In this document: piece after piece, positions 4,790 through 27,190 of the stretch
Layout of the letters: each line of letters opens with the position of its first letter
Position numbering within the stretch: position 1 is the first letter of the stretch
Origin: Candidatus Saccharimonadia bacterium
Lineage (GTDB): Bacteria > Patescibacteriota > Saccharimonadia > Saccharimonadales > Saccharimonadaceae
Direction of reading: 5' to 3'
Assembly: GCA_023260255.1 (NCBI GenBank)
Contig: JALQVV010000002.1
Span: forward strand, 1 to 34,986
DNA: 34,986 nt
The notes under the pieces: generated by a model
What the model saw: only the letters and a program-made list of their open reading frames with translations
What the model was told of the DNA's origin: nothing
Databases searched by the model: none
Made by a program: the position numbers and the translations under genes

Positions 4790-5764
4790 ATGACAGATAC
4801 GATACACGACACCATCATGATAGGAACCGGACCGAGTGCGCTGGCAGCGGCTGTTTATACGACGCGCGAAGATATTGACACAACACTGTATGAAAAAAGT
4901 GTTATTGGGGGCCTCGCGGCAGTGACCGATGTTGTCGATAATTACCCAGGTTTTCCCGAAGGCGTGTCGGGTCTGCAGCTTGCCGGACAGCTGCAAAAAC
5001 AGGCTGAGCGTTTTGGGGCAAAAATTGAGTTTGGCGAAGCATCGGGCCTCACTGTGGGTGAGGATAACGTCAAAACGGTTATTATTGATGGCCGGGAAGT
5101 GAAGGCCAAGACAGTGTTAATCGCAACGGGCAGTGACTACAACAAGCTAGGCATTCCTGGCGAGGCTGAACTGTATGGTCGTGGTGTTCACTACTGTGCG
5201 ACCTGTGACGGTGCATTTTATCGCGAAAGACGGCTGGTTGTTGTTGGTGGTGGTAATTCGGCAGTCCAAGAAGCGATTTTTCTGACGCGATTTGCGACTC
5301 ATATTGATCTGTTGGTGCGCAGTACGATTAAGGCAAGTGACGTCTTACAGCAAGATTTGCAGCGATTTGTTGACGAGGGCAAAATTACGATTCATTTGGG
5401 TGTTGTACCAACTGAAATCATTGCTGAGGATAACAAGGTGACACATGTGAACGCCAAAAAGGGCGATGAGGATGTGCGATTTGATACCGACGGCGTATTC
5501 GTGTTTGTCGGGCTAAAACCTAATACGCGATTTTTGAAAGATTCAGGCATTGAATTTGATGCACAAGGATTGATCAAAACAGACGAGCATCTGGAAACAA
5601 ACTTGCCGGGCGTATTCGCGAGTGGTGATGTTCGCAGCGGTGCAACCATGCAGATTGCGAGTGCAGTTGGCGAAGGTGCAAGCGCGGCTCTATCAATTCG
5701 TGAGTATTTAGACAACCTACATCATGTCGAGAACGTACCGGCGGTTGCTCACGCATCTGCCTGA
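4790..5764 (+). CDS. trxB: Thioredoxin reductase
   Basis: GTGPSALAAAVY, CATCDGAFY redox motif, VVVGGGNSAVQEA, ASGDVRSG. Confidence 0.92.
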   Translation: MTDTIHDTIMIGTGPSALAAAVYTTREDIDTTLYEKSVIGGLAAVTDVVDNYPGFPEGVSGLQLAGQLQKQAERFGAKIEFGEASGLTVGEDNVKTVIIDGREVKAKTVLIATGSDYNKLGIPGEAELYGRGVHYCATCDGAFYRERRLVVVGGGNSAVQEAIFLTRFATHIDLLVRSTIKASDVLQQDLQRFVDEGKITIHLGVVPTEIIAEDNKVTHVNAKKGDEDVRFDTDGVFVFVGLKPNTRFLKDSGIEFDAQGLIKTDEHLETNLPGVFASGDVRSGATMQIASAVGEGASAALSIREYLDNLHHVENVPAVAHASA

Positions 5765-21533: not shown

Positions 21534-21567
21534 TTACTTGCATAAGCATGATAAAATAACCATAAGC

Positions 21568-24180
21568 ATGGAAGATTCGTCGACGAACCCGTATATCCCG
21601 CAGGAGTCTGAGGCTATTCGGCAAAAAGTATACCAGCAACAATCGCCGCTTGGACGCGTGGTGAAATGGTCGCTGATTGCGACAATTATTGTTGCAGTGC
21701 TTGTAGGGATTGGTTTGTTTTTTGTTGTTCCACGAAGTGAAGCGGTTGATCAACAGGCTCGGGTAAAACTTGCTGACGCATTGCAGCCACCCGATCAGAC
21801 ATTAAAACGTGTTCCAGTCCAGTCAGATCTTGGATTCAAACTGAATTATGACAACCGTGTTTATAGTAGCTATGCAGAAGTAGGTGACAGCACGGCAGGG
21901 TCGGATAGTAGCGCTGCAGTCTTGTCGGGTCAAACATATGAAAACAATGATTTGCGGGTGACTCGTGCCTACAATTATGTTCGTATTCGGCCGATTGAAA
22001 GTGTTGAAGGTGCACGTGCGTTGGCGACTCAACCACCCCAACTTGAATTATTTGCAACCGTCACAGACAAAGATTTAACAACCGCTGCAACAGTTGCGGA
22101 GAATAAGGGGCTGTCCAAGCTTAGTTTGTTCGTTAAGCTTGATTCCGACAAGCGTTTGGCGAAAAAGGTGGCCGATGACAAAACAGTTGTCACAATCGAA
22201 GCCTCAAAACCTGTTTCGGCGAGTATTGGAAGTGTTGACTATCAAAAAGTGAGGTTTACGACAACGAACGATAACCACCGCGTTTCCAATGTGCAATATG
22301 ATGACTGCTACTACACAATTCAAAATGATCAGCCTTATTCCGTGTGTATCAGTAATGTCCGACCTACCAATGTCAGTGCTGCGAGTTTGGTGGAGCAGGT
22401 TTTCGATTCGATTACCTATGAGCAGCCTTCGGTTGACGCATCGGGGGCGGATAACAATACAGATACCAGCAAGAAGACCTCGTATGCGCTTCCGCTGGCA
22501 CGGCTTGCCAAGACATCAATAACCGATGAGGCATCGCAGTCAGGTAGTTCGGACAATACCCAGGACAGCAGTGAGGCACCACTTCTTACTATTACGCCAG
22601 AATACTACGCAGATGCTGCCAGTCTGAAAGCAATCGCCAAAAATCAGCCAAGTGTCGTGAGGATTGGCACGCTCTACTGTACGAATCTTGCTCTCAAATT
22701 TGAAAGCGGTGAAACAGCCACAACGCTGACCGATGCTTGTGCTGGCACGGTGGCGAGCGGTGTATTTATTTCAAAAGATGGCTATGTTGCGACGACTGGT
22801 CATGCGATTCGCGCACAGAAAAAAGCAGCGATCAACGGGTATATTAACTTTGCTCCAGATCAAGATCAGATGCTCGATCGTTTGCAGCGTATTCTCGACT
22901 ACCTGCTAAAGGCAAAGATTATTCTGCAGTCAGACGCGGACTATCTGAAAACAGGCGCTTCTATCGGCGATCAAGAAGCGCTCGCGAAAGTTGAAAACAT
23001 TGCTTCTGTCATACCGGATAATTTTATCGTGCCGGTGAACGAAAGCTACACTTACGCGATTCAGCCAACCGATAAGCCAATCGTCATCAACAGGACAGAT
23101 AGCAACAAGCCAGCGTTTGCCTACTCGGATAGTGTACTGAATGCAAAATATGTTGCATCTAATTATGATGCGGCAAAATCCATTCAGGAGGTCTTCGGGA
23201 GTCAGACGCCATCGACTGACGTCGGACTATTAAAAGTCGATGGTGATTTTCCAAATGTTTCAATAGCAGCCAATGAGGATGTCAAAGCGAATGACACGCT
23301 GAGCACTGTTGGCTATTCTGCCTACACCGATAGTTCGCTAACAATCGACAAGATCCGCAATATTCCTGTGGTTACCTCAAGTAAGGTCGAGCAAGCCTAC
23401 CAAAAAGATGGTGGTCGTTTGATTCAGACAAATATGCCAGTGCTCCCTGGGAATGATGGAGCGCCAGTCTTTTCGAGTACTGGCAGCCTGGTTGGTTTTG
23501 CCGTCTATGGCTTGTTGTATTGCCCGGATCAACAGTGTTTTGCAAACGGCACCGTTCGATCATCAGCTGAACTCGTAAAATTATTGGACGACAGTAACAT
23601 CAAACTAGATACTTCTAGTAAAGCGTCGGCAACATGGGAGGAAGGCGTTCACCAGTATTTCCGCGCCAACTATGCAACGAGTACGACCGCATTTGCTGCT
23701 GGGGGAAATGAATATCCATTCAACCGATGGGCGGAGCCACTCAGTAAATTATCGAGTAGTCTAGAAGGTTCTCAGAGCGATACATCACTATGGAATCAGC
23801 TGCAAACGATTATGATCGTCGCGCTAATTATCCTGGTTGTACTGACAATAGTACTTGCGATTGCTTACTTCCTTCACCGTCGTCGGATTAGCTATTTGCA
23901 GGTTGGTCATTATGGTGCCGCTGAACCGCAACCTACTGTTATGGGGCCATCTGCGACATCAATGCAGCCACCCACTGCGCTTCCTCCGGCTCAACCTACA
24001 CAACCTACGCAACCTTTTCAACCATCGGCCGCACCAGCTCAACCTGGACAGCCTATTCAGCCGCAAACGCCATCACTCCAGATGCCTGTTCAGTCACCGC
24101 CAAGCTCCTCCGCACAGCAATACCCGCCTGCAGCGCCCACGGCTCCTTCGACACCGCCAGAAGATCCATTCTACAAATAG
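21568..24180 (+). CDS. Membrane protein with trypsin/HtrA-like fold domain, Pro/Gln-rich C-terminal tail
   Basis: TM near N-terminus (VVKWSLIATIIVAVLVGIGLFFVV), GVFISKDGYVATTGHAI, STDVGLLKVDGDFP, LPGNDGAPVFSSTGSLVGFAVYG, second TM then P/Q-rich tail; start at MEDSSTNPYIPQ. Confidence 0.75.
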   Translation: MEDSSTNPYIPQESEAIRQKVYQQQSPLGRVVKWSLIATIIVAVLVGIGLFFVVPRSEAVDQQARVKLADALQPPDQTLKRVPVQSDLGFKLNYDNRVYSSYAEVGDSTAGSDSSAAVLSGQTYENNDLRVTRAYNYVRIRPIESVEGARALATQPPQLELFATVTDKDLTTAATVAENKGLSKLSLFVKLDSDKRLAKKVADDKTVVTIEASKPVSASIGSVDYQKVRFTTTNDNHRVSNVQYDDCYYTIQNDQPYSVCISNVRPTNVSAASLVEQVFDSITYEQPSVDASGADNNTDTSKKTSYALPLARLAKTSITDEASQSGSSDNTQDSSEAPLLTITPEYYADAASLKAIAKNQPSVVRIGTLYCTNLALKFESGETATTLTDACAGTVASGVFISKDGYVATTGHAIRAQKKAAINGYINFAPDQDQMLDRLQRILDYLLKAKIILQSDADYLKTGASIGDQEALAKVENIASVIPDNFIVPVNESYTYAIQPTDKPIVINRTDSNKPAFAYSDSVLNAKYVASNYDAAKSIQEVFGSQTPSTDVGLLKVDGDFPNVSIAANEDVKANDTLSTVGYSAYTDSSLTIDKIRNIPVVTSSKVEQAYQKDGGRLIQTNMPVLPGNDGAPVFSSTGSLVGFAVYGLLYCPDQQCFANGTVRSSAELVKLLDDSNIKLDTSSKASATWEEGVHQYFRANYATSTTAFAAGGNEYPFNRWAEPLSKLSSSLEGSQSDTSLWNQLQTIMIVALIILVVLTIVLAIAYFLHRRRISYLQVGHYGAAEPQPTVMGPSATSMQPPTALPPAQPTQPTQPFQPSAAPAQPGQPIQPQTPSLQMPVQSPPSSSAQQYPPAAPTAPSTPPEDPFYK

Positions 24181-24340: not shown

Positions 24341-25552
24341 ATGCCCCAATTTCAAAAAAGCGGCCAGCGCTCATTTCATGCTGCGCGCCGCAACTTCCGC
24401 CCCGGCGGATCAGGGAAAGGTGCTCACCGTAGTAACGGCAAGCAAAACATTCATCCCTCAAAATTCATCAATAAAGCAACCGCCTACGAAGAAAAACCCT
24501 ACGAACCGGCACATCGGTTTGCGGACTTTCCTTTTGGTGCAGAATTGCAGTACAACATCGCCAAAAAAGGTTTTGAACTACCAAGTGCAATTCAGGATCA
24601 GGCAATTCCACTGATCGTTGAAGGTCGCGATGTCATTGGCTTGGCAAATACCGGCACCGGCAAAACAGCTGCATTCCTATTGCCAATCATTGAACGCCAG
24701 CGGGGGATTATGCTCCGCCCAAGCGTGCTAATAGTCACACCAACACGAGAATTGGCACAGCAAATCGTTGAAGAATTCAATGATTTTGCTCGTGGTCTTG
24801 ATCTCGAGGCAGCGCTTATTGTCGGTGGGGTAAATATCGACCGCCAGATTCGTAGTTTGCGTCGTCGCCCGCACTTTATTGTGGGGACGCCAGGTCGTCT
24901 GAAAGATTTGATCGAGCGTCGTGAACTACAGATGAAAAACATGACGACACTTGTGCTGGATGAGGCTGATCGTATGCTAGACATGGGCTTTCTGCCCGAT
25001 ATTAAGCGTATTGTTGGCGGTATGCCACGTGAGCGCCAGACACTGTTTTTCAGTGCAACCATGACGCCTGACATCAAAGCTTTGACTGCGCAATTTCTGC
25101 ATGATCCTGCAACAGTACAAGTGCGTACTGGTGAGACAAGCGAACATGTTGAACAAGATGTGATCGAAGCTCGCGACAAAGCACATAAAATCGAATTGCT
25201 TCAAGATCTGTTGCAGCGCGACGGATACACCAAAGTCTTAGTGTTTGGCGATACGAAATATGGCGTACAACGCCTGAGTGATTTGCTGCATAAGAGTGGC
25301 ATTCCATCGGTGGCAATTCATGGCAACAAAAACCAATCTCAACGTCAAAAGGCCCTGCAGCAGTTTAAAGATGAGAGAGTCCGCGTATTGGTGGCAACAG
25401 ATGTTGCGGCACGTGGTCTCGACATCCCAAATGTGACGCACGTCATCAATTTTGACACACCGAAGACCTACGAGGATTATGTACACCGCATTGGCCGTAC
25501 CGGTCGTGGTGGTGCAAGTGGGCGTGCGCATACATTTATCGACGCGCGCTAA
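24341..25552 (+). CDS. DEAD-box ATP-dependent RNA helicase
   Basis: ANTGTGKTAAFLLPII, VLDEADRMLDMGF, FSATMTPD, HRIGRTGRGG. Confidence 0.95.
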   Translation: MPQFQKSGQRSFHAARRNFRPGGSGKGAHRSNGKQNIHPSKFINKATAYEEKPYEPAHRFADFPFGAELQYNIAKKGFELPSAIQDQAIPLIVEGRDVIGLANTGTGKTAAFLLPIIERQRGIMLRPSVLIVTPTRELAQQIVEEFNDFARGLDLEAALIVGGVNIDRQIRSLRRRPHFIVGTPGRLKDLIERRELQMKNMTTLVLDEADRMLDMGFLPDIKRIVGGMPRERQTLFFSATMTPDIKALTAQFLHDPATVQVRTGETSEHVEQDVIEARDKAHKIELLQDLLQRDGYTKVLVFGDTKYGVQRLSDLLHKSGIPSVAIHGNKNQSQRQKALQQFKDERVRVLVATDVAARGLDIPNVTHVINFDTPKTYEDYVHRIGRTGRGGASGRAHTFIDAR

Positions 25553-25589
25553 CTAAGCGTATATTTGGTGTTTTGGTTTTGGGTTATGG

Positions 25590-25618
25590 TTGCGCGGTGA
25601 GGATCGTTCTTGTATTAT
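25590..25618 (+). promoter_or_regulatory. Candidate promoter TTGCGC-N17-TATTAT for the ncRNA
   Basis: -35/-10-like hexamers with 17-nt spacer; an alternative -10 TATATT is at 25560-25565. Confidence 0.35.
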
Positions 25619-26111
25619 TACCCCGACAGCCGTGGAAAGAAATGTTGTACCCGCTCTGGTGAGTATGAGATCAGAGCTACATGTTAGCAGCAGGGCCAGT
25701 CGGACCCACGCACTCGGTCTCGTTCGATGTCGCGCACGTGCGCGCATGGCCGAGCGATCGGATCCATTACCATCCGGCAGTGAACTGTCAGTGACGCTGG
25801 CACGACGACCGGAGGGATCCATCAGCGGGCCCGACCCTCTTGTATCCTGCGGTCCCTGCGGGGGCACGTCGGACGACGGCATGCGCCGTGGCGAGAGGGC
25901 ATGGCACGTCTGATCGCGCTACAGAACCGGACTCGGAGTCTGTGCCCTGGGCGAGCGAAAGCACAGGACGGCGCGATCGCATCGCTCCTTTGCGAAGCCT
26001 GCCGCTATCATGGAACGACGGTACCCCGAGCACCCACGTGGTGGGCTGCCACAAACTTTTTCCACCTCGGGTGTACTGCCATAACCCGGTTCTCGCATAG
26101 CGGGAACCGGG
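25619..26111 (+). ncRNA. Putative large structured ncRNA associated with the downstream reverse transcriptase (msr/msd-like)
   Basis: About 64% GC over 25681-26100 (269/420 by hand count) versus about 45% in a sampled RT line; series of inverted repeats (25653-25677, 25713-25754, 25760-25820, 25835-25899, 25912-25978, 26019-26078, 26085-26111); no conserved protein family recognised. Confidence 0.7.
26085..26111 (+). repeat. 12-bp near-perfect hairpin (one G-U pair) with 3-nt loop just upstream of RT start
   Basis: CCCGGTTCTCGC-ATA-GCGGGAACCGGG. Confidence 0.9.
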
Positions 26112-26122
26112 CAACTTACTAT

Positions 26123-27148
26123 ATGAAGAGTAATCGAAATTATATACCACGCAAAAAGCACAGAGAGATCTGGACGCCGAACGAATACGAACTTGCTGTT
26201 CATCGTGAGTTTTTGCATGCGCTTTCATGGTTATCGAATAATCCTCAGGTCCACGCACCATTTATACCGCTGATTGCTCCAGAAAATGTGACTCTGTATG
26301 AACCGGGGGTTGTGTCGCGTTACGCCGTCGGAGGTCTTAAGGGCGGTGGTGTTCGGGCAAATGCCGAGCGGCATGCGAATAACCGGCATTTCTTTGTGAC
26401 GGATATCCGATCGGCATACACAAATGTCTCCATGGATCGACTCAATGAAAAGATGGCAGAGGCATTTACTCCTTCGACTGCGGGTTGGTTTAAAGAAATA
26501 CAGCAGTATTGGTGGCCTGACGGCCAAAAAGGTCTGCCGCAAGGCTCGCCATTATCGCCCTTTTTGTTTAATGTTTATTGTCACGACTTAGATGAGCGGA
26601 TCGGTGAAATAACCAAAGAGATGATGGGTGGTAAGCCTGTCTATACCAGATATATTGACGATATTACTGTTTCTGTTTCGGCTGAAAAGGACGGGGTTCC
26701 AAAATGGTTGGGCCGCAAGATTATTACTGCGATTCGGGAGTATGGGTTTGATGTAGCTGACCACAAGACTGCCTATATGAGTCTCGATCGCGGACCGCTG
26801 ACTATTACGGGAGTCCGCATCCAACCGGATGGAACGTTCTCGCTGCCGCATCAGCAGATTGTCGATGCTAAGGCAGCGGCATGGCAGTATGATTTAGAGG
26901 GCAGTCCTGATGCACCTGAATATGCTGATCGACTTCGTGGGTATTATGGTTTGGCATTATCGGTGTGTCCGCGAGGTACAGAAACGACAGAAGCCATGGA
27001 ACAACTCAGGGCAATGTTGCGCCGGCGAGTGATTGACTCGCATAGACAAGAAGCTGGGTATGAAGAAGACTTGAGGATGTCCGTTCCTAGGATAACAACT
27101 CAATCGAGCCATACGATAGGTCAGCTTGCACTCTTTGATATCTCATAA
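26123..27148 (+). CDS. Retron-type reverse transcriptase (341 aa)
   Basis: NAERH (NAxxH) followed by FFVTDIRSAYTNV, GLPQGSPLSPFLFNVY, RYIDDITVS, LTITGVRIQPDG; start placed at MKSNRNYIPRKK because upstream in-frame codons lie inside the structured block. Confidence 0.88.
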   Translation: MKSNRNYIPRKKHREIWTPNEYELAVHREFLHALSWLSNNPQVHAPFIPLIAPENVTLYEPGVVSRYAVGGLKGGGVRANAERHANNRHFFVTDIRSAYTNVSMDRLNEKMAEAFTPSTAGWFKEIQQYWWPDGQKGLPQGSPLSPFLFNVYCHDLDERIGEITKEMMGGKPVYTRYIDDITVSVSAEKDGVPKWLGRKIITAIREYGFDVADHKTAYMSLDRGPLTITGVRIQPDGTFSLPHQQIVDAKAAAWQYDLEGSPDAPEYADRLRGYYGLALSVCPRGTETTEAMEQLRAMLRRRVIDSHRQEAGYEEDLRMSVPRITTQSSHTIGQLALFDIS

Positions 27149-27190
27149 CCTATATCGAGCTTTTTGTATTTGATATACAATGGAAAGCAT

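Follow-up and report, generated by a model that had tools for sequence, protein, structure and literature searches.

A probable retron-type element formed by a reverse transcriptase and a long upstream RNA in a Saccharibacteria genome

In this study, we report a locus that is probably a two-component element of the retron type, consisting of a reverse transcriptase (RT) and its cognate structured RNA just upstream, without an effector and in a long-RNA variant. It lies in a stretch of 34,986 nucleotides (contig JALQVV010000002.1, positions 1 to 34,986 of the forward strand; hereafter the window) from a Saccharibacteria (TM7) genome, in which the RT stands alone with a folded RNA of about 500 bases in front of it. 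The cassette (25553-27163, + strand) holds the RNA and the RT and nothing else. It is placed between a DEAD-box helicase gene, whose stop at 25552 forms its upstream edge, and an ABC transporter ATPase gene, and the RT is a lone gene with these neighbours, as the preliminary description of this DNA had indicated. To our knowledge, those retrons whose function has been established work together with an effector, and the bacteria in which they were characterised belong to other groups. A deep branch of RTs with long RNAs in Patescibacteria bears on the origins of retrons, on whether msDNA can act effector-free when only the RT and the long RNA are present, and on phage resistance in ultrasmall epibionts. 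Additionally, long RNAs naturally copied by an RT would be of practical use for obtaining long single-stranded DNA in cells.

The RT is encoded by an ORF of 341 amino acids (26123-27148, + strand), which was confirmed exactly with the motifs previously read in it: GVRANAERHANNRHFFVTDIRSAY, GLPQGSPLSP, YTRYIDDITVS and LTITGVRI. One detail had to be corrected, since five residues (ANNRH) and not four separate NAERH from FFVTD. NAERH occupies residues 80-84 and corresponds to the NAxxH of region X, whose H is invariant across the clade described below, and the catalytic aspartates (YIDD) are kept. Region Y starts with ITG in place of VTG, a V-to-I change also known from the validated RT-Vc81 (PMC6868368). 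The frame is open further upstream, with an alternative ATG at 25901, and the protein alignment starts around residue 14 of the 341-aa form. The protein matched Pfam RVT_1 (2.9e-21), and its best family models were PADLOC RT_VI (1.4e-24, 84.8 bits) and NCBIfam retron_St85_RT (NF038233), the latter with 88.3 bits, far under the NCBIfam cut-off of 235. Other retron types scored nearly as high as these two models and therefore no retron type can be assigned to the window RT. Among its top 25 PADLOC matches, 24 were retron RT models and the remaining one was a CRISPR-associated RT; all 15 sampled clade RTs matched PADLOC retron RT models. When a profile of 15 clade members was compared with the PDB, the best 15 sequences were retron RTs and one CRISPR-associated RT domain (8bgj), with 120-62 bits versus 57 for group II, 44 for DRT2 and 37 for DGR RTs. 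The AlphaFold2 model of the window RT had a mean pLDDT of 72.8, with residues 302-341 and 43-61 at low confidence, and the best 11 Foldseek matches obtained with it were all retron RTs. By its sequence and its modelled structure, the window RT belongs to the retron lineage, not to the DGR, group II or DRT enzymes.

A tree of 58 rows of RTs, with the Ec86 RT among its reference sequences, placed the window RT inside the retron group (support 100/99) and, within it, in a clade of 20 rows found exclusively in Patescibacteria (85/89). This clade has two parts, one of 7 rows including the window, mostly from Saccharibacteria (82/87), and another of 13 rows from Parcubacteria and others (97/88), and its sister group consists of all other sampled retrons (94/89). 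Phylogenetically, the RT clade is deep-branching and specific to Patescibacteria among the sampled retrons. The HMM and phylogenetic placement proposed in the preliminary description has hence been run, the window RT clustering with retrons and not with group II or DGR RTs, and the retron or retron-derived RT announced there is supported by sequence profiles, predicted structure and tree alike. Two features of the tree count against a retron-type reading: the window RT is a long branch, and a topology holding it with DGR-like RTs was barely rejected (AU p 0.049). Grouping with Ec86, the Ec78 family and the Ec67 family was rejected (p 0.003), that reference set not being a clean clade itself.

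The distribution of the clade is patchy. It was detected in 8 of 394 genomes of the window's family (E below 1e-28), in few of 381 genomes of the phylum, and in 4/199 and 4/147 genomes of two Parcubacteria orders (E below 1e-40, centre genomes counted in); in the window's genus, the nine further genomes all lack a clade RT. Single-sequence scans of genome contigs and viral contigs gave no match, an alignment profile being required. In genome G154, the RT is split across the ends of two contigs (L034 in C60, L035 in C47) by an assembly break within the gene. No report of Patescibacteria retrons was found in the open-access papers searched, to which the main 2020 retron census does not belong, and this absence is therefore weak evidence of novelty.

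The extent of the unit was delimited by comparison within the genus. In G131, a GtrA-like gene and gatC come after a helicase with 84% identity, and neither the ncRNA nor the RT is present there. In G112, G123, G074 and G139, the ABC genes come after a trypsin-like gene, either directly or with one small gene in between. Given these arrangements, the variable unit beside the helicase is the RNA and the RT only. In the window, a protein of 880 aa with a trypsin-like domain (PF13365) is encoded at 21538-24180, and among the genomes of the genus that were examined, its gene is conserved beside either the helicase or the ABC genes. BLAST of the flanking proteins at 20 loci revealed the RT as the sole gene common to all, the other flanking genes being mostly housekeeping ones (IF-2, gyrase, ABC-F ATPases). 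No conserved effector gene was found beside the RT across about 20 loci from several orders, nor any effector adjacent or fused to it in the window cassette. From these genome comparisons, the unit is present or absent as RNA plus RT, with no conserved adjacent effector. In this regard, an adjacent or fused effector is typical of defence retrons and lies outside the original retron definition. The DEAD-box helicase was considered as a partner and rejected, as it is a gene of the genus that occurs without the RT and is near just one other RT (L042).

The two ends of a retron RNA are complementary over 8-30 nt; such an RNA also has one to three msr hairpins and a single long msd hairpin, its priming G is located on the 5' arm, at the inner end, and the transcript of retron Mx162 measures 241 nt (PMC6868368). 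The criteria applied here were msr hairpins of 7-10 bp, an msd hairpin of 10-50 bp and a priming G in TAGC, CAGC, GAGC, ACGC or CAGA. Before the window RT, an msr-msd-like ncRNA of about 509 nt is predicted (25579-26087, + strand, as are all its parts), with bounds set by an inverted repeat. Its a1 arm (GGGTTATGGT, 25581-25590) pairs with the a2 arm (GCCATAACCC, 26078-26087) with a mean pair probability of 0.98, and a2 ends 35 nt upstream of the RT start codon. The predicted interior comprises a second closing stem (GTGGAAAGA/TTTTTCCAC, 25632-25640 with 26057-26065, p 0.90), an msr-like hairpin of 8 bp with a 9-nt loop (25653-25677, p 1.00) and an msd-like branched domain with several inner hairpins (25680-26012, closing pairs p 0.97-0.99), closed by a 12-bp stem (CATG-TAGC-GCAG / CTGC-GCTA-CATG). 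We infer that this domain would be the part that is reverse transcribed. Directly before the RT start, a further hairpin, CCCGGTTCTCGC-ATA-GCGGGAACCGGG (26085-26111, p 0.005 versus shuffles), shares the last 3 nt of a2 and is followed by no T-run.

The structured and GC-rich character of this region and its length, previously given as about 490 nt and here as about 500 nt, were upheld, with a GC content of 0.56-0.68 across 25600-26099 versus about 0.47 in the surroundings. The upstream stretch folded with a z of -3.0 relative to dinucleotide shuffles, 1 of 100 being equally good, and 25579-26087 with a z of -2.4, reached by 0 of 40. The start had to be moved, since the positions of the inverted repeat put the onset of the RNA unit probably some 40 nt earlier. 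The upstream stretch is single-copy in the window genome and without Rfam match, and DNA searches with the window RNA against plasmids and phages gave no match. As to a protein-coding nature of the region, which the preliminary description raised for close homologs as a contrary outcome, the stretch has no Pfam domain above the cut-off and no excess of open reading frames, and a coding role was rejected.

It must be noted that several traits of the window RNA count against a retron-type reading. The a1/a2 pairing of 10 bp is at the expected place, and 34 of 100 shuffles match it; as it is not significant alone, the assignment rests on position and on the relatives. At a1, a priming site of the TAGC/CAGC type is absent, TTGC being found instead. 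A single long msd hairpin is not predicted, 25680-26012 being branched with a longest hairpin of 21 bp, and the window RNA has no detectable relative. In addition, long-range pairing tests on upstream regions of 570 nt gave no signal in the window, L037, L045, L047 and L048. A test of the 'ends' (1/60) was biased because the ends had been picked for complementarity, and it was not used as evidence.

The a1/a2 repeats were sought in 20 clade and near-clade loci and before 36 control genes from the same loci. The best inverted repeat spanning 180-540 nt was taken from the 600 nt before each RT, its 3' arm being required within 140 nt of the start codon, and p values were obtained from dinucleotide shuffles. 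Repeats with p<=0.05 were present in 12/20 RT loci versus 6/36 control genes, with a mean z of 2.4 versus 0.45. The control rate of 17% indicates a liberal test; therefore, the comparison with controls and not the nominal p constitutes the evidence. Among the loci at p<=0.05, repeats of 12-17 nt were found in L039, L041, L046, L053, L058, L125, L126 and L143, and clear a1/a2 pairs in L041 (GAATTTGGGAGTTG), L046 (GCGGCCCAGAGT), L053, L058, L125 (GTGGTCTGGGGCC), L126 (TAAGGGCAAGCAGGG) and L143 (GAGACCTAGGGA); that of G154 is CAGGCGGGAG. AGC is present at the inner end of a1 in L047, L052, L058 and L125. The spans bounded by a1/a2 measure 206-511 nt, those of Saccharibacteria being mostly 361-511 nt and that of G154 252 nt. 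The claim of an ncRNA longer than usual thus holds at the level of the clade, where such RNAs precede most RTs and are longest in Saccharibacteria, in comparison with the 241 nt of Mx162. Thirteen of the 16 RNAs had a fold z of -3.3 or below; it was weaker in the window, L047 and L045. Outside the clade, a Patescibacteria retron (L126:3051-3437, + strand) has an RNA of about 310 nt, whose a1/a2 is perfect over 15 nt and which includes an msd-like hairpin of 52 bp.

The window RNA is the longest among the clade RNAs and, by prediction, the most branched. A canonical layout of msr and a long msd hairpin (39-46 bp) is predicted in L041 and G154; therefore, if the prediction is right, the window would represent an extreme long and branched form. 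A new ncRNA architecture, as suggested in the preliminary description, was not established: L041 and G154 are canonical, the window RNA lacks close relatives, and by itself its a1/a2 is within chance.

Direct evidence of a selected RNA structure in the clade comes from compensatory changes in L039 and L040, whose RTs are 85% identical. Each of these loci has tandem RNA copies, with their own a1/a2, and one RT gene (L039:5177-5411 and 5551-5756; L040:5073-5314 and 5382-5588). The four copies have a 58-nt core that is 100% paired with 11 double-change cells, and this covariation exceeds all 500 shuffles and all slid versions. The covariation in upstream regions that had been proposed as a check was accordingly found in two relatives. 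A covariance model of this core (R1) detected neither the window RNA nor those of other relatives; the divergence of the RNAs is too rapid for a single shared model.

The hairpin before the RT is significant in seven of eight Saccharibacterial members (window, L036, L037, L045, L047, L058 and G154; not L048) and, among the remaining loci tested, in L046 alone. In L036, L045 and L058 it comes with a T-run, which gives it the appearance of a terminator placed between RNA and RT. In the last 100 nt before the RT of L037 and L048, the a2 arm is inside the loop of a larger hairpin, with arms GGGGGCGC/GCGCCCCC and ATCCCTGGC/GCCAGGGAT, respectively, as if this hairpin and the a1/a2 pairing were alternatives.

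With respect to known systems, the window shares with the E. coli-type retrons (Ec86, Ec78/Eco7, Ec83, Ec67) the RT fold, NAxxH, [V/I]TG and an RNA just upstream; a1/a2-paired ends are common to these retrons and the window's relatives, and msr plus a long msd hairpin to some relatives. Unlike them, the window is in a separate deep Patescibacteria branch, without an adjacent or conserved effector, and has a weak a1/a2 and no TAGC-like priming site; its RNA of about 509 nt is predicted to be branched, versus 241 nt in Mx162. According to published abstracts, DRT2, DRT9 and DRT10 are two-component systems of a lone RT and a structured RNA, a layout like that of the window, whose RT lineage differs and which has no sign of a hidden ORF. 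The DGRs of Patescibacteria have host group and RT superfamily in common with the window element, but the template/variable repeat pair is absent from the window and the RT clade differs.

The locus might be an ordinary defence retron with its effector elsewhere in the genome or lost, and with a long RNA that is merely a bulky msd. The retron lineage of the RT (profile, tree, structure) and the canonical msr-msd of some relatives are in agreement with this, which we consider possible but rather unlikely, given that no conserved adjacent partner appeared in about 20 loci over several orders and that other retrons usually hold the effector beside or fused to the RT. Two fusions of clade RTs could supply such effectors. 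In L045 (5764-7686, + strand) a single ORF encodes the RT together with a domain of the peroxide stress protein YaaA (PF03883, 4.7e-63); this could be a real fusion, or a host gene joined in frame by accident, which would speak against an ordinary defence retron. In L052 (5815-7062, + strand) the RT is fused to a DnaG-type CHC2 zinc ribbon (PF01807, 2e-24). That the GC-rich stretch is not the template of the RT but a leader, an attenuator or a foreign piece, the RT alone being retron-related, is unlikely: it would agree with the lack of relatives of the window RNA, with an a1/a2 that by itself lacks significance and with the strong hairpin ahead of the RT start, yet a bounded structured RNA occupies the equivalent position in most clade relatives, and in G131 the RNA is absent together with the RT.

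An element like DRT2, DRT9 or DRT10, whose RNA templates a cDNA (repeated or protein-primed) that acts as the effector, would match the layout of lone RT and neighbouring structured RNA without effector gene. Nevertheless, the RT is outside the UG/DRT lineage (DRT2 44 bits versus 120 for retrons), the relatives' a1/a2 repeats are retron-like and the ncRNAs show no excess of ORFs, which a DRT2-like hidden gene might need; such a system is very unlikely here. For contrast, the window genome has a clear UG21 RT: on its contig C100, a second, unrelated RT of the UG21 DRT type is encoded (L002:784-2355, - strand; PADLOC 8.6e-131). DGR-like RTs occur in genomes of the same family (L017-L019), but a DGR or group II intron RT is highly improbable for the window, as the tree separates its RT from both, NAxxH is present and Rfam gave no intron RNA match in the window. 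Moreover, no second genomic copy of the upstream DNA exists and therefore there is no variable repeat, which argues against a DGR.

If the locus is the two-component retron-type element that we favour, its RNA would fold with paired ends (a1/a2), the RT would bind the 5' hairpin part, and priming would start at a guanosine close to the inner end of a1. By analogy with retrons, part of the long 3' domain would be copied to give a branched RNA-DNA hybrid (msDNA). The hairpin before the RT gene, terminator-like in several relatives, may let the RNA accumulate over the RT mRNA. Without an adjacent effector, the active agent could be either the complex of RT, RNA and DNA or a host protein whose gene lies elsewhere. 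The default guess for the biological role, by analogy, would be phage defence. As a tentative and more doubtful extension, these could be basal, effector-free retrons specific to Patescibacteria, whose very long branched RNA would give an unusually large or multi-armed RNA-DNA hybrid as the active agent, whether for defence or for some other function, in an epibiont whose genome measures about 1 Mb.

Finally, at three loci (L039:5027-5109, L046:6688-7254 and L053:5072-5291), tRNA genes adjoin the RT/RNA cassette or lie close to it, perhaps marking integration sites.
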